From NCBI GenBank assembly GCA_944392145.1, contig CALXVS010000010.1, positions 1 through 50,736 of the forward strand: DNA of 50,736 nucleotides, read 5' to 3'. Positions 7,707 to 46,475 of this stretch are shown in pieces. The stretch is from an uncultured Alphaproteobacteria bacterium. Lineage in GTDB: Bacteria; Pseudomonadota; Alphaproteobacteria; CAAHEQ01; UBA3637. Under the pieces are notes generated by a model. The model ran no database searches. It was not told the origin of the DNA and saw nothing but the letters and a program-made list of their open reading frames with translations. Position 1 is the stretch's first letter. Each line of letters starts with the position of its first letter. Position numbers and translations under genes: made by a program.

Positions 7707-7735
7707 TTGACATTCCCTAAAAAAGACTGTATAGT
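7707..7735 (+). promoter_or_regulatory. Promoter of antirepressor leader 1
   Basis: TTGACA (7707-7712), 17 bp, TATAGT (7730-7735). It fires against the late operon. The expected RNA start is near 7742, over 200 nt before the coding start. Confidence 0.8.
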
Positions 7736-7741
7736 GTTTCG

Positions 7742-7947
7742 TAGAGGTTAAGAACTCTAATGCTACCGGTTAGCGCACTCGTTAGGGCGTTATTTTTATG
7801 TCATATGTGACCTCCCAGTCATTATGATAAAAGTTTATGCCAAGAGTGCGGTGAATATATTGAATAAACCCACGTGTGTAGTATCACGTTCTTAAACTCT
7901 TGGCACCTTACTATTTAAGGTAACTTTTTAAGAAGAGGATACTACCT
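7742..7947 (+). ncRNA. Structured 5' leader RNA 1 (c4-like, antirepressor control)
   Basis: This ~205-nt leader is non-coding. Hairpin 1 (stem GTAG 7741-7744 with CTAC 7763-7766) exposes TTAAGAAC (7748-7755). GTTCTTAA (7888-7895) can pair either with that loop or, extended as TTCTTAAA, with TTTAAGAA (7927-7934) next to the ribosome site. GTAGTATC (7878-7885) also pairs with GATACTAC (7938-7945), closing the site. TGCCAAGAG (7838-7846) pairs with CTCTTGGCA (7897-7905). The layout matches the co-transcribed c4 antisense RNA of P1/P7. Confidence 0.65.
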
Positions 7948-8751
7948 ATGACAAATTTAATCAAAATCACCGAGATTGAACAAGAACCGCGCATCCAAGA
8001 TATTGTTTTGGGGCGTGCTTTGGGATTAGCACGTGCACGAAAAATAAAAGATGTTATTGATGCAAATATGGCAGAATTATTGACTTATGGTCGTGCGCCC
8101 TTGATAAGGGCGGACGTGAAAATCGGCTGTGCAACCCGTAAGACAGAATCCTATTATTTAAACGAACCGCAAGCATTACTTATTTGTATGTTTTCACGGA
8201 CAGATAAAGCGGCGGAAGTAAGGAAAGAGGTCATACAGGCCTACATGGCATTAAAACACCCTCAAAACGACCTTGGCCTTGTCCCGGTCTCCTCCTACAC
8301 CCGACGTCTTCCCTCCGGACCGCGGGAAATCAAGTTATCCGAAAAAGCCCGGTCTGAAATCGGCGGGATTGTCAAGGCGTGCATCGGTTCGGCCTTAAAA
8401 GACATCACCGTGACACAAACGGTTGACCCCATTGGATACAATATCCCCGAATCGTTAAAGCAACCCGACGTCGTGCCGGCCGAGGTGGAAAAGGAGCTGT
8501 GGCGCCTGACCGAACAGTTGCATTACGGACTTCAAAAGCAACAACCGAAAGCACAAAACACATCGGTGCTGAATTTGTTTTACCTATTGCGGGCACTTAA
8601 AACGGTTTTAACCCGGTATCGCACCGTGCAAAACGAAACGTTGTTTGCCGTGGACATGATGAAAGGGGATAAAAACTATGAAAAGGACGAGGCTTTAGAA
8701 CGCATATACATCCTAAACGCCATGACGAACGGCGCGTTACGGGTGTGCTGA
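7948..8751 (+). CDS. Antirepressor-type protein A with shared C-terminal domain
   Basis: A 267-aa protein. Residues 1-105 form an N-terminal module (DIVLGRALGLARARKIKDVI ... YYLNEPQALLICMFS ... EVRKEVIQAYMAL) typical of phage antirepressor/anti-immunity proteins that are neither BRO nor Rha. Residues 106-267 are a domain shared with three other proteins here (19276, 39671, 42518), starting LGLVPVSSYTRR and ending TNGALRVC. It is transcribed against the late operon, next to the spanins. Such proteins usually counter the CI repressor or act on the host; the target is unknown. An RNA leader controls it. Confidence 0.75.
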   Translation: MTNLIKITEIEQEPRIQDIVLGRALGLARARKIKDVIDANMAELLTYGRAPLIRADVKIGCATRKTESYYLNEPQALLICMFSRTDKAAEVRKEVIQAYMALKHPQNDLGLVPVSSYTRRLPSGPREIKLSEKARSEIGGIVKACIGSALKDITVTQTVDPIGYNIPESLKQPDVVPAEVEKELWRLTEQLHYGLQKQQPKAQNTSVLNLFYLLRALKTVLTRYRTVQNETLFAVDMMKGDKNYEKDEALERIYILNAMTNGALRVC

Positions 8752-19275: not shown

Positions 19276-20427
19276 TCAGCACACCCGTAACGCGCCGTTT
19301 GTCAGGGCGTTTAAGATGTATATGCGTTCTAAAGCCTCGTCCTTTTCATAGTTTTTATCCCCTTTCATCATGTCAACGGCAAACAACGTTTCGTTTTGCA
19401 CGGTGCGATACCGGGTTAAAACCGTTTTAAGTGCCCGCAATAGGTAAAACAAATTCAGCACCGATGTGTTTTGTGCTTTCGGTTGTTGCTTTTGAAGTCC
19501 GTAATGCAACTGTTCGGTCAGGCGCCACAGCTCCTTTTCCACCTCGGCCGGCACGACGTCGGGTTGCTTTAACGATTCGGGGATATTGTATCCAATGGGG
19601 TCAACCGTTTGTGTCACGGTGATGTCTTTTAAGGCCGAACCGATGCACGCCTTGACAATCCCGCCGATTTCAGACCGGGCTTTTTCGGACAACTTGATTT
19701 CCCGCGGTCCGGAGGGAAGACGTCGGGTGTATGAGGATACCGGAACGAGGCCAAGCTCTTGTTGCGCCGGGGAGACATAGGCGCCGGTCTTGCGGATACT
19801 TGGTAGGACTTCCGAATAGACCCAGTCAGCAAAGGCTTGCGCTTGCGGTTTGTTAGAACGGAATATCAGGCGGTAGAGATTGGGTTCGTTGATGATTGTA
19901 ATTTGCTGCATTACAGAAAAGAACATAATTTCTTGGTTTATGCTAACCATACACCCCTTCGGTGGGTTAGTGGCTCTTGTCACATACACCCACAAGTTTT
20001 CTATATCACAACGATTTTTCCCATATTTTTTAAATTCTTCTTCACGTTGTTTCTTCCACCTTTTTTCCCGTTCTTCTTGCTCTTTCTTTTCCTCCAAGTA
20101 TTTTTTGTGATTTTCTTTGATTTGTTCACTTAGTTCATTGCGACAGGATTCTATTCGTCTATATCCTTCTTTAAGATGAGTTTTATAAATGAACTTTTGG
20201 AAATCATTATAAGAGGATTCAACTTCCTTTAATTTTTTTTCTGTTTTATTCAAGTATGCCATTTTTTCTGATTTCTCTAAAGAAATTTCTTGTTCATCAT
20301 GGCAATCATCATAAAAATACGAATAATTACTCCGACTGCCAACCAATTGCTCAATTGCATCATTCCTTAGATCAGAACACGCACACAAAGTTCCCAAAAT
20401 AATAAAACACGAAACTTGCTTTAACAT
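19276..20427 (-). CDS. Chimeric moron: lipoprotein/coiled coil fused to a truncated BRO module and the shared C-terminal domain
   Basis: A 383-aa frame in three parts. Residues 1-17 are a lipoprotein signal (FIILGTLCAC, lipobox TLCAC). Residues 18-~150 are a charged coiled coil (EEKKEQEEREKRWKKQREEE). From ~175 (ITIINEPNLYRLIFRS) comes the second half of a BRO-N domain without its first ~60 residues, then the shared C-terminal domain. The antirepressor part could not reach DNA if the protein is exported. It is either a recombination relic or a new envelope protein. It has its own promoter and is bracketed by hairpins in the tail operon. Confidence 0.65.
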   Translation of the reverse strand: MLKQVSCFIILGTLCACSDLRNDAIEQLVGSRSNYSYFYDDCHDEQEISLEKSEKMAYLNKTEKKLKEVESSYNDFQKFIYKTHLKEGYRRIESCRNELSEQIKENHKKYLEEKKEQEEREKRWKKQREEEFKKYGKNRCDIENLWVYVTRATNPPKGCMVSINQEIMFFSVMQQITIINEPNLYRLIFRSNKPQAQAFADWVYSEVLPSIRKTGAYVSPAQQELGLVPVSSYTRRLPSGPREIKLSEKARSEIGGIVKACIGSALKDITVTQTVDPIGYNIPESLKQPDVVPAEVEKELWRLTEQLHYGLQKQQPKAQNTSVLNLFYLLRALKTVLTRYRTVQNETLFAVDMMKGDKNYEKDEALERIYILNALTNGALRVC

Positions 20428-33277: not shown

Positions 33278-33688
33278 TTATATCTTTTTCAAAATTTCAT
33301 CCAGGCCACGCTCAAAATAATTGCGCAAGGTTTGCCGGCAAACACATCGGGACGCATACTGCCGACTGACTAATTCCCGGGCAATTCGTTTCCACCCCAT
33401 ACCGGAGCACCGCATGTTCACAGCGGCCTGTTGCTCGCCATGAATCAGACGAAGCCAACTTTCCACCGCTTCCACATGTGCGATTTCTTCCGACCGAACA
33501 CTCATACCAAAACCGCTTTCAACATCTTCCATGATATCTTCTAAACTGCGCTCGTTATCCGGAATAATAACATATTTCCCCAATAAACATTCCACCCGTT
33601 TGGGGCCGACACGCGGCATCCGCCGATAAATGCTGAATGCTTGACGGATCGCTTCCTCTAACTCCCGACGATTACTTGGTTTGTTCAT
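33278..33688 (-). CDS. DUF6362-type helix-turn-helix phage protein
   Basis: A 136-aa protein with a C-terminal helix-turn-helix (MGWKRIARELVSRQYASRCV, then RQTLRNYFERGLDEIL) and an N-terminal helical part. It corresponds to DUF6362-type proteins commonly encoded upstream of terminase genes in alphaproteobacterial phages. A late regulator or packaging accessory role is inference. AAAGG precedes the ATG. Confidence 0.65.
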   Translation of the reverse strand: MNKPSNRRELEEAIRQAFSIYRRMPRVGPKRVECLLGKYVIIPDNERSLEDIMEDVESGFGMSVRSEEIAHVEAVESWLRLIHGEQQAAVNMRCSGMGWKRIARELVSRQYASRCVCRQTLRNYFERGLDEILKKI

Positions 33689-33689
33689 A

Positions 33690-34121
33690 TTAAACTGCCT
33701 TTCTTTTGTAAATATTCGGAAATGCCATATAAACCGTGTCTTTTATCGGTTCAAACCCGCCCTTTTTAACACCATACAGATCGTAAATCGTTCGGCTTGC
33801 CTGATCTTGTTCTACTCCGTGATTCAGCAAATACACATAACACTTGTCCGCTTCTTCGTCGGACGTAATCTGTTGTTCTGCTTGCATATTATCCAATTCA
33901 CTCAAAACATGCGATATCGTCGGGAATGTGCGCACTTTTCCGAACTTAACCACCTTGTATGCCGCTGTTTTTACCTGTTCCACCGTATAGGGCTTTAATG
34001 CCTCACTCCAGCGCCGGATAATCTCATCCCGATCCTGTCCCTCTTTGGGCTTCGTTTCCCAATTCGGCATACCGTAAATATCCGAAAAAATTCCAAAAAC
34101 TGCTTCAAACTGCATATTCAT
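33690..34121 (-). CDS. Replication-region phage protein, helicase-loader-like
   Basis: A 143-aa helical protein (FSDIYGMPNWETKPKEGQDR, RRWSEALKPYTVEQVKTAAY, RTFPTISHVLSELDN). Similar small proteins follow replisome organisers in phages and include helicase-loader relatives; this is a weak match. Coupled to the upstream DUF6291-type gene. The start at 34121 has GGGAGG upstream. Confidence 0.5.
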   Translation of the reverse strand: MNMQFEAVFGIFSDIYGMPNWETKPKEGQDRDEIIRRWSEALKPYTVEQVKTAAYKVVKFGKVRTFPTISHVLSELDNMQAEQQITSDEEADKCYVYLLNHGVEQDQASRTIYDLYGVKKGGFEPIKDTVYMAFPNIYKRKAV

Positions 34122-34123
34122 CG

Positions 34124-34864
34124 CTAAATCCTCCCCTCTAACCATGCTCTGCGCATTTCATCCGTAATTGGCTGGGCAAAGGCAACACCTCTACCCGAAA
34201 AAACTCTTTCCACAGGCTTTCGCACGTCCTCCCTTTCCCATGTTCGCACTGCCGATCGCCAATCTTTCATCGGGCTTTTACCCACTTTCCACCCCTTGGC
34301 TTCGTAAAAATCCCAAAATTTCCCGGCATCAACGTTGTTTTGTCGTTCACGGCAATATGCTTCAACCTCATCAACCGTTGGTTTTTTGAATTTTTTTTCG
34401 GGTGGGGGAACACACACATCCGAACAACGTGAGGATGTGTATATGGGGGTATTATTTTTATTATTTTTATTTTCTTCTTGGGGGATTGTTAAGGGGGCAT
34501 TCTTCTTTTCTTTTGTTTCTTTTTGCTCGTTTTCAAGTTTTTCAAGTTCATCTTGATTTTTTTTCAAGTTTTCAAGTTTTTCAAGTTGCATCTTGAAATC
34601 TTGATTTTTTTCAAGTTCATCTTGAAAACTTGATTTCTTTTTGCGACCGCATCCACAACGGCTGCCTCCCCAAGTAAGACTTTCAGCACCAGTATTTCCC
34701 ACAGGATTAACAGCGTGCACCAATGCGGCAATAATCGGATCTTCAGGCTCAACACCTTTAAAAACATAATCCGTCAAGGCATCGTAAAATTTCAATCGCA
34801 AATCGTCCGGTAATTTATCGGCAGCTTCTTTGAAATTTGAAAAAAATGTAAATCTGTCTGTCAT
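34124..34864 (-). CDS. Replisome-organiser-like protein (DUF6291-type N terminus)
   Basis: A 246-aa protein. N terminus (FSNFKEAADKLPDDLRLKFY, AVNPVGNTGAESLTWGGSRC) matches DUF6291-type. The middle is a low-complexity Lys/Glu/Asn coiled coil (ELEKLENEQKETKEKK) encoded by short CAAGTT/CTTGAA repeats (34530-34640). The C terminus (VEAYCRERQNNVDAGKFWDF, WRSAVRTWERE) is the tail common to phage replication initiators. The repeat block may be an origin, as in lambda O. Start 34864 with GAGGG. Confidence 0.7.
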   Translation of the reverse strand: MTDRFTFFSNFKEAADKLPDDLRLKFYDALTDYVFKGVEPEDPIIAALVHAVNPVGNTGAESLTWGGSRCGCGRKKKSSFQDELEKNQDFKMQLEKLENLKKNQDELEKLENEQKETKEKKNAPLTIPQEENKNNKNNTPIYTSSRCSDVCVPPPEKKFKKPTVDEVEAYCRERQNNVDAGKFWDFYEAKGWKVGKSPMKDWRSAVRTWEREDVRKPVERVFSGRGVAFAQPITDEMRRAWLEGRI

Positions 34865-38156: not shown

Positions 38157-38456
38157 TTATTTTCTAACGACACTTGCTGTTAATTTAACACCAAAGTGCC
38201 GCATCACATTCATGACTGTCCCCAATTCCGGATTCCCATTACCGGAAAGTGATTTATAAAGGCTTGTTCGGCTCATACCCGTTTCTTTAGCCAATCGGCT
38301 CATCCCTTTGGCTTTAGCAATATCCCCTATCGCTGCCGCCAATAAGGCCGGATCATTTTCTTCCAACACAGCCGACAAATATTCAGCTATATCATACTCA
38401 TCTTTCAAAAATTCGGAGGCATCAAATTCCGAAACAACAATCTTCTTTTTTGTCAT
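38157..38456 (-). CDS. HigA-type (HI1420-like) antitoxin
   Basis: A 99-aa addiction-module antidote protein. The N-terminal arm (FDASEFLKDEYDIAEYLSAV) and the helix-turn-helix MSRLAKETGMSRTSLYKSLS match the HI1420-type antitoxin family, which bind the toxin and the operon promoter. It is encoded one base after the toxin, the HigBA order. GAGGTG precedes the ATG. Confidence 0.9.
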   Translation of the reverse strand: MTKKKIVVSEFDASEFLKDEYDIAEYLSAVLEENDPALLAAAIGDIAKAKGMSRLAKETGMSRTSLYKSLSGNGNPELGTVMNVMRHFGVKLTASVVRK

Positions 38457-38457
38457 A

Positions 38458-38748
38458 TCACACCTCTTCTTTCATTTTTCTTGCTCTTTTAATGTCTTTT
38501 GCCTGTGTTGACTTATTTCCGCCGCATAATAATAAAATCCAAGTCACACCTTTTTTCATAAAATACAACCGATATCCGGGTCCGTAAAAAATTCTTATTT
38601 CATAAAGGCCTGCCTCTATTGCTTTAAAATCACCCCAGTTACCTAAAGTAATCCGCCTGATTCGGGCAATAATAACGGCACGCGCCTTATCATCGTCCAA
38701 ATCCGCCAACCATTCGGCAAAAACACTTGTCTGTTGCACTCTTATCAT
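38458..38748 (-). CDS. HigB/Gp49-like toxin (RelE superfamily)
   Basis: A 96-aa toxin. FAEWLADLDDDKARAVIIAR, EAGLYEIRIFYGPGYRLYF and LLLCGGNKSTQAKDIKRAR are the hallmark of phage-derived Gp49-like RelE-fold toxins that cut ribosome-bound mRNA. The promoter at 38756-38784 places the RNA start at or one base before the ATG, so the transcript is probably leaderless. Confidence 0.9.
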   Translation of the reverse strand: MIRVQQTSVFAEWLADLDDDKARAVIIARIRRITLGNWGDFKAIEAGLYEIRIFYGPGYRLYFMKKGVTWILLLCGGNKSTQAKDIKRARKMKEEV

Positions 38749-39378: not shown

Positions 39379-39445
39379 AAGAGGCAATGGAAGATAAAAA
39401 ATGACTTTATCTATCGCATTTACAGAATTTTTTCACAAAAACTTG

Positions 39446-39475
39446 TTGACAATAAGCACCAAATGTGATTATAAT
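39446..39475 (+). promoter_or_regulatory. Promoter of antirepressor leader 2
   Basis: TTGACA (39446-39451), 18 bp, TATAAT (39470-39475). Confidence 0.8.
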
Positions 39476-39481
39476 GGGGGT

Positions 39482-39670
39482 AAGGCTAAACACCTTATTA
39501 CAAGCGGACTGTCCGCCCCGAAAGATTTGCGGTTATTTTTGTATCCGATGAATGTCGGGGGTGCAGAGAATAAAAGAGGATTCGTCCGAATAATCTCGCT
39601 CGTCTTGTATCGAGTGTTTAGCCCCCGGCGCCTGACCGGTTCAGGCCTTCTAAACAAAGGATACAAGAAA
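39482..39670 (+). ncRNA. Structured 5' leader RNA 2 (c4-like)
   Basis: Hairpin 1 (TAAGG 39481-39485 with CCTTA 39493-39497) exposes CTAAACA. GTGTTTAGCC (39614-39623) is the exact complement of GGCTAAACAC (39484-39493) and can also pair with CTAAACA (39650-39656) beside the ribosome site. TCTTGTATC (39603-39611) and TTGTATCC (39539-39546) each match the ribosome-site sequence GGATACAAGA (39659-39668). The roles match those in leaders 1 and 3. Confidence 0.65.
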
Positions 39671-40480
39671 ATGCAAGAATTAGTCAGCATTATCAATAAT
39701 CAAATAAAAACAACATCAAATATCATTGCGTCAACATTTGGCAAAGCGCATAAGGATGTTTTGCGCCGTATTGAATCGTTGGAAATCCCTGATGATTGGC
39801 ATCAGCGCAATTTTACGCCCATGCTTAAAACCGTTGATATTGGCGGCGGAGCAACTCGCCACGACAAAGCTTATGAAATCACCCGTGACGGATTTACGTT
39901 GCTTGCCATGGGCTTCACCGGCAAAAAGGCAATGGAATTTAAAATCAAATACATTGATGCCTTTAATAAAATGGAAGCGGCTTTAAAGGGACAAAACGAC
40001 CTTGGCCTTGTTCCCGTGTCCTCTTACACGCGCCGACTCCCGTCCGGCCCACGGGAAATTAAGTTGTCCGACAAAGCCCGCTCCGAAATCGGCGGGATTG
40101 TCAAGGCATGCATCGGTTCGGCCTTAAAAGACATCACCGTAACACAAACGGTTGACCCCATCGGATACAACATCCCCGAATCGTTAAAGCAACCCGATGT
40201 CGTGCCGGCCGAGGTGGAAAAGGAGCTGTGGCGCTTGACCGAACAGTTGCATTACGGACTTCAAAAGCAACAACCGAAAGCGCAAAACACATCGGTGTTG
40301 AATTTGTTTTACCTGCTCCGGGCACTTAAAACGGTTTTAACCCGGTATCGCACCGTGCAAAACGAAACCTTGTTTGCTGTTGACATGATGAAAGGGGATA
40401 AAAACTATGAGAAGGACGAGGCTTTAGAACGTATATACATCTTAAACGCCCTGACAAACGGCGCGTTACGGGTGTGCTGA
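39671..40480 (+). CDS. Rha-family regulator B with shared C-terminal domain
   Basis: A 269-aa protein. Residues 1-~108 are a Rha domain (TTSNIIASTFGKAHKDVLRR, AYEITRDGFTLLAMGFTGKK, AMEFKIKYIDAFNKME), found in phage regulators that interfere with lysogeny. From ~110 it carries the shared C-terminal domain, almost identical at DNA level to that of the BRO protein at 42518. It is preceded by a long RNA leader, with ribosome site AAAGGA. The hairpin CCGGACTGAACATCCGG follows the stop. Confidence 0.85.
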   Translation: MQELVSIINNQIKTTSNIIASTFGKAHKDVLRRIESLEIPDDWHQRNFTPMLKTVDIGGGATRHDKAYEITRDGFTLLAMGFTGKKAMEFKIKYIDAFNKMEAALKGQNDLGLVPVSSYTRRLPSGPREIKLSDKARSEIGGIVKACIGSALKDITVTQTVDPIGYNIPESLKQPDVVPAEVEKELWRLTEQLHYGLQKQQPKAQNTSVLNLFYLLRALKTVLTRYRTVQNETLFAVDMMKGDKNYEKDEALERIYILNALTNGALRVC

Positions 40481-41710: not shown

Positions 41711-42342
41711 TTATTCACACAATGCCGCAGCGCAGCCCGGAATGGTATGCCGTTCGGTTTGGGAAAATCACCGGCTCAACCTTTTATCAATTCATGGGAA
41801 CGGGCAAAACGGTTGAAGACCGCATTTTTGAAAAAGCGGCCGAACATTTAACGCATCAAGCCGCGGTTGACAGTTTTGAATCAATAGACACGGAACGGGG
41901 CAAAACCCTGGAAGATGAGGCCGCCTTTTTATATTCGGTTATGACAGGGCGTGACGTTAAGCAGGTCGGCTTTATTGAGTATAATGCTTATGCGGGATGT
42001 TCTCCAGACGGCCTTGTCGCCGATGACGGCATGATTGAAACCAAATGCCCCCGGCAAGCCGGCCATTTAAAAACCGTTATCAACGGCTTTATCAAACCGG
42101 AATATCGTTGGCAAATGCAATACAACTTGTTCATCGCAGACCGGAAATGGTGCGACTTTGTGAGTTACTGCAAGCCGTTCGGCAAGCCTCACATCATTCG
42201 GGTGGACCGCGATCCGGCATGCTCGGCCCGTATTGCCGAAAAACTGGAAGAATTAAGCGGCCGGATTCAAGAAATTATCAACATGTATAACGAAAGGAGA
42301 AAAAAACTTGTTGACAACATCAAATCATGTATGGTATATTGA
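41707..42342 (+). CDS. YqaJ/lambda-Exo-type alkaline exonuclease
   Basis: A 211-aa 5'-3' exonuclease. QRSPEWYAVRFGKITGS is the entry motif, GCSPDGLVADDGMIETKCP carries the catalytic Asp and Glu-x-Lys, and WQMQYNLFIADRKWCDFVSY is the conserved end of the core. With Rad52 it forms a two-gene recombination system. Its last ~11 codons contain the promoter for leader 3. Confidence 0.95.
   Translation: MIIHTMPQRSPEWYAVRFGKITGSTFYQFMGTGKTVEDRIFEKAAEHLTHQAAVDSFESIDTERGKTLEDEAAFLYSVMTGRDVKQVGFIEYNAYAGCSPDGLVADDGMIETKCPRQAGHLKTVINGFIKPEYRWQMQYNLFIADRKWCDFVSYCKPFGKPHIIRVDRDPACSARIAEKLEELSGRIQEIINMYNERRKKLVDNIKSCMVY
42311..42340 (+). promoter_or_regulatory. Promoter of antirepressor leader 3
   Basis: TTGACA (42311-42316), 18 bp, TATATT (42335-42340), embedded in the 3' end of the exonuclease gene. 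Confidence 0.8.
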
Positions 42343-42346
42343 AGTC

Positions 42347-42517
42347 CTAAACATCAACGGCGGTATTCGCCCCTGTCAGTCTGGCGACTTTTTTATGCCC
42401 AGTTTATGGGGGATGAGAACCGAAAATATATTGAATATCGGTCAGCGTCCGTTGACGTTTAGTGAGTCCCCCACCTCTCATTGTAAAAGGTGGCTTCTAA
42501 AAATCAACGGAGTTACC
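42347..42517 (+). ncRNA. Structured 5' leader RNA 3 (c4-like)
   Basis: The clearest of the three. CTAAACATCAACGG (42347-42360) near the RNA start and CTAAAAATCAACGG (42497-42510) at the ribosome site differ by one base. CCGTTGACGTTTAG (42449-42462) pairs with the first in 13 of 14 positions and with the second in 12 of 14. GGGGG (42408-42412) and CCCCC (42468-42472) can also pair. The leader thus holds a mimic of its own translation start region. Confidence 0.7.
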
Positions 42518-43339
42518 ATGCATAAAGCATTAACTATATTTAATTATCAAAACAATCAAATCCGCACCAAGTTAATTAACAACGAACCTTATTTTTGTGG
42601 TTTGGATGTTTGCAAAATCTTGGGCATTAAAAACAACCGAGATACTATTACCAGATTACACGATGGCGTCGTTATTGCCGACACCACCGATTCTTTAGGC
42701 AGGCAACAAAGCGTTTCGTATATTAACGAGCCAAATCTTTATAAAGTAGCCTTTCAATCGCGTAAACCAACGGCTGAACCATTTGTCAATTGGGTATGCA
42801 AAGAAGTCCTACCAAGTATCCGCAAGACGGGAGCCTATGTCACACCGGCGCAACAGGAGCTGGGCCTTGTTCCGGTGTCTTCTTACACCCGCCGTCTCCC
42901 CTCCGGCCCGAGAGAAATAAAACTCTCCGACAAAGCCCGGTCGGAAATCGGCGGGATTGTCAAGGCGTGCATCGGTTCGGCCTTAAAAGACATCACCGTA
43001 ACACAAACGGTTGACCCCATCGGATACAACATCCCCGAATCGTTAAAGCAACCCGATGTCGTGCCGGCCGAGGTGGAAAAGGAGCTGTGGCGCTTGACCG
43101 AACAGTTGCATTACGGACTTCAAAAGCAACAACCGAAAGCGCAAAACACATCGGTGTTGAATTTGTTTTACCTGCTCCGGGCACTTAAAACGGTTTTAAC
43201 CCGGTATCGCACCGTGCAAAACGAAACCTTGTTTGCTGTTGACATGATGAAAGGGGATAAAAACTATGAGAAGGACGAGGCTTTAGAACGTATATACATC
43301 TTAAACGCCCTGACAAACGGCGCGTTACGGGTGTGCTGA
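42518..43339 (+). CDS. BRO-family antirepressor C with shared C-terminal domain
   Basis: A 273-aa protein. Residues 1-~110 are a full BRO-N domain (IRTKLINNEPYFCGLDVCKI, LGIKNNRDTITRL, SYINEPNLYKVAFQSRKPTA, FVNWVCKEVLPSIRKTGAY). From ~115 it has the shared C-terminal domain. The second half of its BRO domain resembles the truncated copy at 19276-20427. Likely a DNA-binding antirepressor; the RNA leader controls translation. ACGGAG is the ribosome site. Confidence 0.85.
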   Translation: MHKALTIFNYQNNQIRTKLINNEPYFCGLDVCKILGIKNNRDTITRLHDGVVIADTTDSLGRQQSVSYINEPNLYKVAFQSRKPTAEPFVNWVCKEVLPSIRKTGAYVTPAQQELGLVPVSSYTRRLPSGPREIKLSDKARSEIGGIVKACIGSALKDITVTQTVDPIGYNIPESLKQPDVVPAEVEKELWRLTEQLHYGLQKQQPKAQNTSVLNLFYLLRALKTVLTRYRTVQNETLFAVDMMKGDKNYEKDEALERIYILNALTNGALRVC

Positions 43340-43538: not shown

Positions 43539-43858
43539 CTGACTTTTTAATCACATTGTCTGAGATTGCACAGACATTACGATATGAAGGGGATAAGGCC
43601 GAATTACACGCCCGCAAATGGCTTTATAAACACGGCCTAAAACAATTTGCCACAGGTAAGTATGTAAGGAAGCAAGTAGAAAATATATTGGAAGCAAAGG
43701 GTAAAAAATGCTACATTACAGACAGCGCGGTAAAACATGGCACGTCCGAGGCAGTATTCGCGTGGGAAAACGCACCATCAAAATCCCCGAAAGATCTACT
43801 GGGTTTATTAAACTTAAAGATGCAAGAGAGTATGGAAGCAAACTTGAAACGGATATAA
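43535..43858 (+). CDS. Excisionase-like protein
   Basis: A 107-aa frame. The first ~58 residues (FLITLSEIAQTLRYEGDKAE, KWLYKHGLKQFATGKYVRKQ) look like a winged-helix excisionase that directs integrase toward excision. The remaining part overlaps the start of the integrase gene by 150 bases in another frame and is not obviously conserved. AGGAGGAG precedes the ATG. Confidence 0.65.
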   Translation: MTDFLITLSEIAQTLRYEGDKAELHARKWLYKHGLKQFATGKYVRKQVENILEAKGKKCYITDSAVKHGTSEAVFAWENAPSKSPKDLLGLLNLKMQESMEANLKRI

Positions 43859-44736
43859 GAGAAAACACCCTCTATCCTGAACAGGATAAAAGCCAAAAGA
43901 CAACCTTTGACGATTGTCTGTGCATACACCTGAATAAAAAAAGATTAAAACCTGCTGAAATCCAAAAGATAAAAATCCTTTTACCGAACTTTCAAGGTGT
44001 GTGTGTATCCGAAATAAAGGATGCATGGAATAGATTTTTGGCTAAAAAAAAGCACCTTGCACCAGCTACAATCAACCGTTATGCAAACACAATTAAAAGT
44101 ATAATTAAGAGTGGCGGTGAAGAAATAAACATAAAAGCCCCCCAAATTCAACATTTATCTGTCAAAAATCAGGTGGTTTTCCTTTTACCGGAGCAGATCA
44201 GACCCCTTTTAATCGGTTGTTATTCGGTTCACGCAAAGCCTATCTTTACCGTTTATGCCTATCAAGGATTACGCGAACAAGAAAATTTACAGTTGAAATG
44301 GGAGGATGTAGATTTAAAACGAGCTGTTCTGTTTATCCGAACATCTAAAAACGGGGAGTCGCGACAAATCCCTATGCACAAAAATGTGTGGTGGATTTTG
44401 ACAAGACACTGGATAAGATCGGGAAAACCCATCACCGGGAATGTGTGGCTGAATAGTAAGGGGCAACCCTACAAAGACACCCGGCACACGGGATGTGGCG
44501 GCAGCCCCGTCAGAAAAGCGCACACGCTTGCGCTTAAAAGATTAAAAGAGCAGCACGGTATAGAAATCAAAATGCGTGTCCACGACTGGCGACACGATTG
44601 GGCGTCCCGCATGGTTATGGCTGGCGTAGATTTATTGACCGTTCAAAAGCTAGGTGGGTGGAAATCGCTTGATATGGTTAAACGTTACGCCACATTTTCT
44701 GCGCGCCACGAGATTGATGCTATCAATAAAATTTAA
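43708..44736 (+). CDS. int: Tyrosine-type phage integrase
   Basis: A 342-aa recombinase. The N-terminal arm-binding region begins LHYRQRGKTWHVRGSIRVGK. Catalytic residues: Arg in AYQGLREQENLQLKW (about 186), the HDWRHDWAS box (His and Arg, about 291-294) and Tyr in MVKRYATFS (about 328). It integrates the phage into tRNA-Val, next to attR. AAGGG precedes the ATG. Confidence 0.95.
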   Translation: MLHYRQRGKTWHVRGSIRVGKRTIKIPERSTGFIKLKDAREYGSKLETDIRENTLYPEQDKSQKTTFDDCLCIHLNKKRLKPAEIQKIKILLPNFQGVCVSEIKDAWNRFLAKKKHLAPATINRYANTIKSIIKSGGEEINIKAPQIQHLSVKNQVVFLLPEQIRPLLIGCYSVHAKPIFTVYAYQGLREQENLQLKWEDVDLKRAVLFIRTSKNGESRQIPMHKNVWWILTRHWIRSGKPITGNVWLNSKGQPYKDTRHTGCGGSPVRKAHTLALKRLKEQHGIEIKMRVHDWRHDWASRMVMAGVDLLTVQKLGGWKSLDMVKRYATFSARHEIDAINKI

Positions 44737-44815: not shown

Positions 44816-44843
44816 ACCTTCACACGGTAGGGGCCGCAGGTTC
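44816..44843 (+). other. attR core
   Basis: 28 bp identical to attL 6309-6336, ending at GGTTC of the tRNA T arm. The remaining tRNA 3' end is not adjacent; it follows after 113 bp. Confidence 0.9.
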
Positions 44844-44956
44844 GAACAAGCCGCAAGGCCGGCGGGAGACGGCCGGTTTTAATGCATTAAAATGCGGCGC
44901 GTTAATGTCCCGCAACGCGGGACAGCCCTTTAGGGTGAGCATTATATAATGCGAAT

Positions 44957-44976
44957 AATCCCTGCCACACCCACCA
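44957..44976 (+). pseudogene. tRNA-Val 3' fragment left at attR
   Basis: The T-arm 3' side, acceptor strand and CCA are identical to those of the intact tRNA, but are separated from the att core by a 113-bp insert within the T loop. Confidence 0.85.
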
Positions 44977-44986
44977 ATAAAAAAAG

Positions 44987-45010
44987 GCCGGTTTATCCGG
45001 CTTTTTTTAT
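44987..45010 (+). terminator. Original tRNA-Val terminator
   Basis: GCCGG (44987-44991) pairs with CCGGC (44997-45001), then a T run. It is repeated in the second unit near 45198-45221. Confidence 0.8.
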
Positions 45011-45249
45011 TGGTCTTGGATGTGCCGGATTGAACCTGCGGACAAAGCAGGTTCGAACAAGCCGCAAGGCCGGCGGGAGACGGCCGGTTTTAATGCATTA
45101 AAATGCGGCGCGTTAATGTCCCGCAACGCGGGACAGCCCTTTAGGGTGAGCATTATATAATGCGAATAATCCCTGCCACACCCACCAATAAAAAAAGGCC
45201 GGTTTATCCGGCTTTTTTTATTGGTCTTGGATGTGCCGGATTGAACCTG

Positions 45250-45925: not shown

Positions 45926-46180
45926 ATGACTCAAATCATTGCTATGAGAGAAGCGCGTCAGAATCTATCCGAACTTGTCAATCGTGTCGCTTATGGCAAC
46001 GAACGAATTTCTTTGACACGTAAAAATAAACCGGTTGCCGTATTGGTATCTTTGGATGATGCCAAAATATTGGAAGCGTTGGAAAATAAGGCTGATTTAA
46101 AAGATTTAGAAGCAATGATAAAAGAGGAGTTGGGTGAAACTGTCTCTTGGGAAGAAGCACGGCGTGAATTAGGTTTATAA
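45926..46180 (+). CDS. Phd/YefM-family antitoxin
   Basis: An 84-aa antitoxin. The N-terminal DNA-binding domain (MREARQNLSELVNRVAYGNE, RISLTRKNKPVAVLVSLDDA) is the Phd/YefM pattern. The C-terminal acidic helices (EAMIKEELGETVSWEEARRE) should wrap the toxin. AAGAGGTG precedes the ATG, and the toxin gene follows after one base. It is outside the prophage, between repeat mosaics. Confidence 0.93.
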   Translation: MTQIIAMREARQNLSELVNRVAYGNERISLTRKNKPVAVLVSLDDAKILEALENKADLKDLEAMIKEELGETVSWEEARRELGL

Positions 46181-46181
46181 A

Positions 46182-46475
46182 ATGTATCGCATCATTGTTA
46201 AAAAGTCAGTTATTAAAGAAATTAAAAATTTTCCTCTTCATATTAAAAAACAGATTGATCATACTATTCAATCTTTGGCAAAAGAACCTATTCCTGCCGG
46301 CGTCAAAAAAATAAAAGGATTGTCCCGTGATTTTATTAAACACATAGGGAGTGACTCTGTTTATCGTGTTCGTGTTGCAGAGTATCGGATTATTTATATT
46401 GTGTTTGAACAGGATATTTTAATTTGTATCGTTAAAATCGGTCTTAGAAAAGACGTTTATCGTTTTATTAAATAA
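46182..46475 (+). CDS. RelE/ParE-family toxin
   Basis: A 97-aa toxin: VKKSVIKEIKNFPLHIKKQI, then IKGLSRDFIKHIGSDSVYRV and RVAEYRIIYIVFEQDILICI, RLRKDVYRF-like end (GLRKDVYRFIK). The pattern KGL...YRVRVAEYRIIY is typical of RelE-type mRNA interferases; ParE action on gyrase is less likely. It is coupled to the antitoxin. Confidence 0.93.
   Translation: MYRIIVKKSVIKEIKNFPLHIKKQIDHTIQSLAKEPIPAGVKKIKGLSRDFIKHIGSDSVYRVRVAEYRIIYIVFEQDILICIVKIGLRKDVYRFIK

Follow-up and report, generated by a model that had tools for sequence, protein, structure and literature searches.

How might a gene be controlled whose leader carries, in addition to the ribosome-site region, a second copy of that region near its own start and, between the two copies, an element that can pair with either? 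This arrangement precedes an antirepressor-type gene (leader 3, 42347-42517) in the window, by which we mean the whole 50,736-nucleotide stretch of alphaproteobacterial DNA that was analysed. A preliminary description of the leader proposed, by comparison with the C4 antisense RNA of phages P1 and P7, that the middle element blocks translation and that the upstream copy is a decoy which competes for it.

Three complementary elements ahead of an antirepressor gene

A repeat search recovered the three elements of leader 3 where they had been described (Table 1), and the three-way complementarity is real. The middle element is 93% complementary to the decoy and, over 15 nt, 87% complementary to the target, while decoy and target, as copies of one another, share 84% identity over 19 nt. 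None of 300 dinucleotide shuffles of the leader produced a 14-mer pairing with both a 5' and a 3' partner at three mismatches or fewer to each; together with the covariation presented below, this rules out a chance repeat as the origin of the triple. The duplexes calculated with RNAduplex are of similar strength (middle:decoy -21.9 kcal/mol, middle:target -22.4 kcal/mol). Since a near-consensus promoter ends at 42340, the transcript is expected to start at approximately 42347, at or beside the decoy; the scan of the leader found three promoter-like sites, compared to 1.1 in shuffles.

The relatives of the leader 3 protein are distant only, and derive from 16 viral-contig loci and one other genome of 43. 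By eye, no triple was seen in the leader of that genome. Leaders 2 and 3 (39401-39671 and 42308-42518) are open in frame with their genes, with ORFs of 359 and 343 codons, respectively.

Table 1. Positions of the leader elements and of the genes that follow them, in window coordinates
Feature	Position	Strand	Details
Promoter of leader 1	7707-7735	+	TTGACA, 17 nt, TATAGT; 11/12 consensus positions
Decoy of leader 1	7746-7767	+	
Three-stem core of leader 1	7839-7907	+	Model R1 38.4 bits, E 5.4e-7
Middle element of leader 1	7876-7895	+	
Target of leader 1	7928-7945	+	
Antirepressor-like gene with shared C-terminal part	7948-8751	+	phrog_5060 anti-repressor Ant, 1.6e-4
Promoter of leader 2	39446-39475	+	TTGACA, 18 nt, TATAAT; 12/12 consensus positions
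Decoy of leader 2	39486-39504	+	
T1-like hairpin and T run of leader 2	39513-39540	+	Relaxed T threshold
Three-stem core of leader 2, sRNA-Xcc1-like	39554-39632	+	RF02221 48.8 bits; model R1 44.2 bits, E 2.2e-8
Middle element of leader 2	39604-39621	+	
Target of leader 2	39650-39667	+	Before gene start 39671
Rha-type gene with shared C-terminal part	39671-40480	+	PF09669, 4.8e-26
Sigma-70-like promoter of leader 3	42311-42340	+	TTGACA, 18 nt, TATATT; 11/12 consensus positions
Decoy of leader 3, a1b1-like	42347-42360	+	CTAAACATCAACGG; at or adjoining the expected transcript start
T1 hairpin of leader 3	42367-42394	+	TCGCC/GGCGA, then C and six T; relaxed T threshold; a short decoy RNA may end here
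Three-stem core of leader 3	42408-42475	+	P1 42408-42413/42467-42472; P2 42419-42423/42438-42442; P3 42446-42449/42454-42457
Middle (antisense) element of leader 3	42449-42462	+	CCGTTGACGTTTAG; P3 loop (b') and linker (a')
T2-like hairpin after leader 3 core	42471-42493	+	CCACC/GGTGG; overlaps P1 by 2 nt; weak T run
Target of leader 3, ribosome-site copy of decoy	42497-42510 (feature 42497-42512)	+	CTAAAAATCAACGG; overlaps Shine-Dalgarno-like ACGGAG
Antirepressor-type gene, Bro-N domain	42518-43339	+	PF02498, 1.7e-19; best PHROG phrog_130 anti-repressor Ant, 1.6e-43

Two further leaders in the same prophage

The window carries a prophage, with an integrase at 43708-44736, and leader 3 does not stand alone. 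As the plural of the preliminary description had implied, leaders 1 and 2 carry the same three-way arrangement, each before an antirepressor-type gene and in sequences unrelated to leader 3; the sequences differ among the three leaders and the pairing is kept within each. Each of the three has a near-consensus promoter with a decoy close to where transcription should begin, as well as a weak hairpin with T run, a three-stem core and, at the ribosome site, a target.

The C-terminal part of the gene product is near-identical in four genes (7948-8751, 19276-20427 on the minus strand, 39671-40480 and 42518-43339), the other three being 84-98% identical to the leader 3 gene, and the N-terminal parts of the four differ (Bro-N, Rha, unknown and a lipoprotein-like start). 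The shared part points to gene conversion or domain swapping between antirepressors in the recent past. For the gene at 19276-20427 (-), no such leader was detected in the model R1 search of the window. Just 3' of the integrase, a stretch of some 195 bases is, by eye, repeated nearly identically (44840-45030 and 45050-45245). Two gene pairs, at 38157-38748 (-) and 45926-46475 (+), are presumably toxin-antitoxin-like.

The three-stem core and its place among RNA families

The core consists of three stems, P1, P2 and P3. Model R1 was built from 30 cores, namely that of leader 2 and its relatives, leaving out leaders 1 and 3, and it nevertheless found the core of leader 1 (Table 1). The core of leader 3 was missed by the default R1 search of the whole window, and once the filters were switched off it scored 14.4 bits (E 0.0013 over 201 bases); it is therefore a divergent copy, in which the three stems that R1 recognises clearly in leaders 1 and 2 are recognised weakly. 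Leaders 1 and 3 have AATATATTGAATA in P2 in common. In the core alignment, which was fitted to the structure, 92.4% of cells are paired (72.0% when shuffled), the covariation score is 0.590 (0.217 when shuffled), and 21 of the 22 core pairs show changes on both sides. By these comparative measures, the core structure is strongly supported.

At cut-off, Rfam models detected only a single tRNA in the whole window. The C4 model (RF01695) had no match in the window at cut-off and none to E 10 in leaders 1-3, which rules out membership in Rfam C4; the comparison with this model that had been suggested for leader 3 thus came out negative. The c4-a1b1 (RF03163) and IsrK (RF01394) models were likewise without a match to E 10 in the three leaders. 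The core of leader 2 resembles sRNA-Xcc1 (RF02221), scoring 48.8 bits at a relaxed threshold against a cut-off of 53 (E 1.6e-7), and leader 3 scored 17 bits, also below cut-off; this model gave no match in leader 1.

Decoy, antisense and target covary across leaders

In order to follow the pairing beyond the window, we assembled leaders from 82 sources, leaving out same-place repeats, 17 loci, the P1 loci and the loci around the window's own genes. The 88 matches and leader 3 made 89, which were reduced to 74 at 80% identity and to 73 on dropping a reverse-strand match (L061:1498-1576). The antisense of each leader pairs far better with its own decoy than with the decoys of others (mean -23.5 versus -13.4 kcal/mol; z -29.9), its own decoy being the best of the 73 in 55 leaders. 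Pairing with its own downstream region is also stronger than with other downstream regions (-14.0 versus -10.9 kcal/mol; z -10.0), with the own region ranking best in five. Decoy pairing exceeds target pairing in 70 of 73 leaders, leader 3 being among the three exceptions.

When the antisense was divided into its parts, the P3 loop covaried with b1 (z 23.9) and the linker with a1 (z 19.5) on the upstream side, whereas downstream the linker and the P1 3' strand reached z 8.4 and the P3 loop only z 1.2; the reversed controls of this test gave z 2.7 and 1.2. The test was repeated with a constant linker because shared ancestry was a concern. Among 13 leaders with the same linker, the loop matched its own upstream region best in 12 (z 9.0; downstream z 0.5), and among a further such set of five it did so in all five (z 3.3). 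In a class-wide set of 31 leaders, the test gave z 12.9. Since the loop covaries upstream, also where the linker is constant, and not downstream, the comparison indicates that the P3 loop is tied to the decoy, and that the ribosome site is matched mainly by the linker and the P1 strand.

A downstream match of the loop is also present in leaders 1 and 2 (rank 1 of 73 in each case), and in leader 3 only via the whole middle element. Because the loop shows so little downstream covariation across the family, most chromosomal copies are without the full two-part target of leaders 1-3. For leader 3, whose P3/linker model and 27-nt antisense segment were both set by hand, the short P3 loop and linker alone rank poorly (24, 23, 40 and 19 of 73), and only with the whole middle element as query does the leader come to the fore (rank 1); in RNAduplex, both of its duplexes rank second among the upstream or downstream regions of the 73 leaders.

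Relatives in phages and in bacterial genomes

Of the 16 viral-contig loci with a Bro-N relative, ten were scanned; six of these carry sRNA-Xcc1 above cut-off (L118, L119, L120, L121, L122 and L125), one matches C4 (L130) and three match neither (L123, L124 and L128). An exact sRNA-Xcc1 motif of 23 fixed bases located 78 sites in 74 viral-contig stretches, 47 of them non-redundant with full flanks, and in these 47 phage leaders the antisense again covaries with the upstream (z -13.8) and downstream (z -9.0) regions. The proteins encoded downstream, 41 in number as six leaders had no usable ORF, include Bro-N (11), P22_AR_C (10), KilA-N (8), Rha (5) and AntA (2) domains, in families that may overlap, and 26 of the 41 match phrog_245, 'anti-repressor Ant'. 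Furthermore, in the four records examined out of 15 phage records, sRNA-Xcc1 matches above cut-off lie directly before ant of Aaphi23, a KilA-N gene of Acinetobacter phage 4316 and Ant of Pasteurella phage Pmp3, as well as in Moraxella phage Mcat15, where the downstream gene is hypothetical. Judged from these loci, sRNA-Xcc1 precedes phage antirepressor genes, which is a new observation. A conserved leader ORF for translational coupling, of the orf45 kind, is not general: 30 of the 47 phage leaders have a start-like codon after the T run, and ten of these 30 stay open past the core.

Among bacterial genomes, 43 represent the family, and 40 of these hold between one and 56 R1 cores each at E <=0.01; of 289 genomes sampled from the class, 37 have a match at E 0.001. 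Among named records, one exact sub-motif occurs in metagenome bins of Alphaproteobacteria, one of which bears only the title proteobacterium; the titles of several point to gut samples. The layout appears widespread in related gut bacteria. The genes 3' of the cores, named from their N-terminal sequences alone, are antirepressor-like, prepilin-like (GRSMVEMLGVLAIIG), short lipoprotein-like, helix-turn-helix proteins and others, and many cores of the family precede genes other than antirepressors. Four genomes (G049, G017, G058 and G019) hold 31 to 56 copies each; one locus (L034) has two cores 327 bases apart, and cores cluster on one strand. A search of plasmids with sRNA-Xcc1 gave four weak matches.

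Relation to known systems

With the C4 systems of P1 and P7 (RF01695 and RF03163, clan CL00128), the leaders share an RNA of three stems that carries its pairing sites in the P3 loop and linker, copies of these sites upstream (a1/b1) and at the target (a2/b2), and a co-directional antirepressor gene downstream. Indeed, leaders 1-3 each have a second copy upstream, and their P3 loop and linker can pair with the ribosome site. C4 is further characterised by RNase P processing and repression in trans. In the P1 record, whose locus is matched by Rfam C4 and c4-a1b1, a1/b1 lie upstream of C4 and a2/b2 downstream, the a sites being identical (TTGACAG). The systems differ in that the target in the leaders lies directly at the antirepressor start, whereas an icd gene intervenes in P1/P7, and in P2 of the window leaders, besides the lack of Rfam C4 and c4-a1b1 matches. 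The comparison with P1/P7 first drawn for leader 3 therefore holds for layout, pairing sites, 5' and 3' copies and type of gene, but not for the Rfam C4 model, and the relatives are nearer to sRNA-Xcc1. The decoy is an already known kind of feature: P1 has a1/b1, and Rfam has c4-a1b1, a name that also occurs in a table of Weinberg 2010 (PMC2864571).

The likeness to sRNA-Xcc1 lies in the P1-P2-P3 layout and in the score of leader 2; the phage relatives pass the cut-off, whereas the leader cores of the window fall below it. sRNA-Xcc1 is a Xanthomonas sRNA, located in integron cassettes according to the title of Chen 2011 (cited in PMC12189769 and PMC12444791), and the available text of the printed sources links it to virulence and does not describe it as an antirepressor leader.

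The IsrK-orf45-anrP locus of Gifsy-1 (RF01394) provides a further parallel. IsrK, a short RNA from the 5' end that stops at a terminator, pairs with the middle part of the long transcript to which it belongs, and an antirepressor-type gene lies downstream; in our leaders the decoy:middle pairing is present, and T1 is terminator-like, if weak in leader 3. In contrast, control in Gifsy-1 acts via the small ORF orf45, and the window leaders have no isrK match. On the minus strand of Gifsy-1, isrK (34240-34316) overlaps c4-a1b1 (34277-34329) and is followed by C4 (34131-34214) and then anrP; in this mapping, which is our own, 34316 is IsrK nucleotide 1, and the gene at 33513-34076, annotated as antirepressor-like, is read as anrP. 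According to the available part of the Gifsy-1 report (PMC4825925), short IsrK, acting in trans, renders the long transcript active for translation, and the cis mutations G28A and G31A raise expression, with C162U and C159U restoring pairing. On our mapping, nucleotides 28 and 31 of IsrK fall in decoy site a1 and nucleotides 162 and 159 in the C4 linker, with the right bases at all four positions. The term 'C4 RNA' is absent from PMC4825925.

The Group 1 sRNAs of Acinetobacter baumannii, as described in the accessible part of PMC5320573, similarly have C4-like cores, a conserved 5' hairpin region, GGW processing and many copies per genome; they differ in belonging to other bacteria and, in that text, in having no downstream target identified. 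In the open-licence PMC literature, as far as its accessible text extends, we found no paper linking sRNA-Xcc1, C4, c4-a1b1 and isrK except PMC12189769, the available part of which lists the families as separate annotations, with isrK 46 nt from C4 on the same strand in Xylella De Donno.

Hairpins flanking the core

A standard terminator scan found no terminator-like site in leaders 2 and 3, and their T1 hairpins were found at a relaxed T threshold. A T1 hairpin with T run between decoy and core occurs in 29 of the 47 phage leaders (3.7 expected) and in 16 of the 73 alphaproteobacterial leaders (5.1 expected). A second hairpin with T run, T2, follows the core in 53 of the 73 (8.2 expected), a count that does not include leader 3, and among these 53 its 5' arm overlaps P1, mostly by about 4 nt.

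Mechanism of control

We consider it probable, at roughly two chances in three, that leader 3 serves a prophage antirepressor gene as a control module of the C4 type, in which the middle RNA represses and the decoy relieves, most likely in trans. Directly observed are the geometry of the pairing and its covariation in many relatives, as well as promoter sequences and gene type. From these we infer a scheme of transcription, T1 termination, processing, repression and relief. One promoter would give a transcript starting at the decoy, part of which may stop at T1 to yield a short decoy RNA, as IsrK does, while read-through would produce the three-stem RNA, whose P3 loop and linker can pair with the gene's ribosome site. 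Alone after processing, or within the mRNA, this RNA would block antirepressor translation, and the decoy, by binding the same loop and linker, would relieve the repression, most likely in trans.

Relief in trans is supported by the trans effect of IsrK in the available account, whereas simple competition in cis is doubtful because breaking a1:a' in cis raised Gifsy-1 expression in that same account. Hence, the proposal that the decoy competes for the middle element finds a published parallel in its trans form and loses ground in its cis form. The direction of control, which had been left open, is less open than stated, since by analogy the middle RNA would repress. Against the module reading stand the divergent core of leader 3, the weakness of its T1 and T2 as terminators and, over the family, the poor match of the P3 loop to the downstream region. 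Furthermore, as the target of leader 3 pairs as well as its decoy in the calculated duplexes, repression in cis may win over the decoy in this leader.

Could the leader instead be a riboswitch-like element acting only in cis, in which decoy:middle, middle:target and the three-stem core are alternative mRNA folds chosen during transcription, with no separate RNA? For leader 3, the predicted folds are -55.5 (middle:target, the minimum), -53.3 (decoy:middle) and -48.8 kcal/mol (P1 forced), and for leader 2 they are similarly close (-64.1, -66.6 and -66.5 kcal/mol, respectively). The three folds of leader 3 are predicted to lie within 7 kcal/mol, and switching in cis is therefore a real rival. It would also agree with the overlap of T2 and P1 in the leaders that have T2, and with an alternative hairpin, P0, formed by the upstream strand and the P1/P2 5' strand, which covaries across leaders (z 10.0, against 3.2 for the reversed control and 0.5 and 1.6 for the shifted ones) and may hint at another switch. 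P0, in which the stretch before the core pairs with the P1/P2 5' strand, comprises 10-14 bp in L032, L031, L097, L108 and others. However, leaders 2 and 3 show only a weak P0 and leader 1 none, leader 3 being weak in T1, T2 and P0 alike, while C4 of P1 and P7 is reported, in the accessible part of PMC5320573, as a separate processed RNA acting on the target mRNA, and IsrK acts in trans. We therefore regard control in cis only as unlikely.

That the 5' copy is merely a second target, bound by the antisense RNA so as to shut down its own precursor and without a role in relief, would suit the P1 record and the Rfam entry, which call a1/b1 'putative target sites for C4 RNA' and c4-a1b1 'targets of C4 antisense RNA', but is quite improbable given that IsrK, which contains a1b1, activates in trans (PMC4825925, available part) and that the decoy beats the downstream region in matching the antisense in nearly all leaders.

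Implications

The reading of leader 3 as a control module with a built-in decoy joins RNA families that are filed apart, C4, c4-a1b1, isrK and sRNA-Xcc1, by one testable layout. It proposes a function for sRNA-Xcc1, in print a virulence sRNA, namely translational control of the gene directly downstream, and it offers an explanation for the conservation of the 5' decoy, a feature marked only as a putative target in P1. We tentatively raise the broader possibility that the four families are pieces of one module, consisting of an antisense repressor and a co-evolving built-in decoy, that this module has escaped from phages in small-genome Alphaproteobacteria, where as many as 56 copies per genome would now stand before genes for surface proteins, lipoproteins and other products, and that its hypervariable loop-decoy pair would serve as a private recognition code against cross-talk. 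The finding suggests that gut Alphaproteobacteria probably hold many such modules, as yet unstudied.
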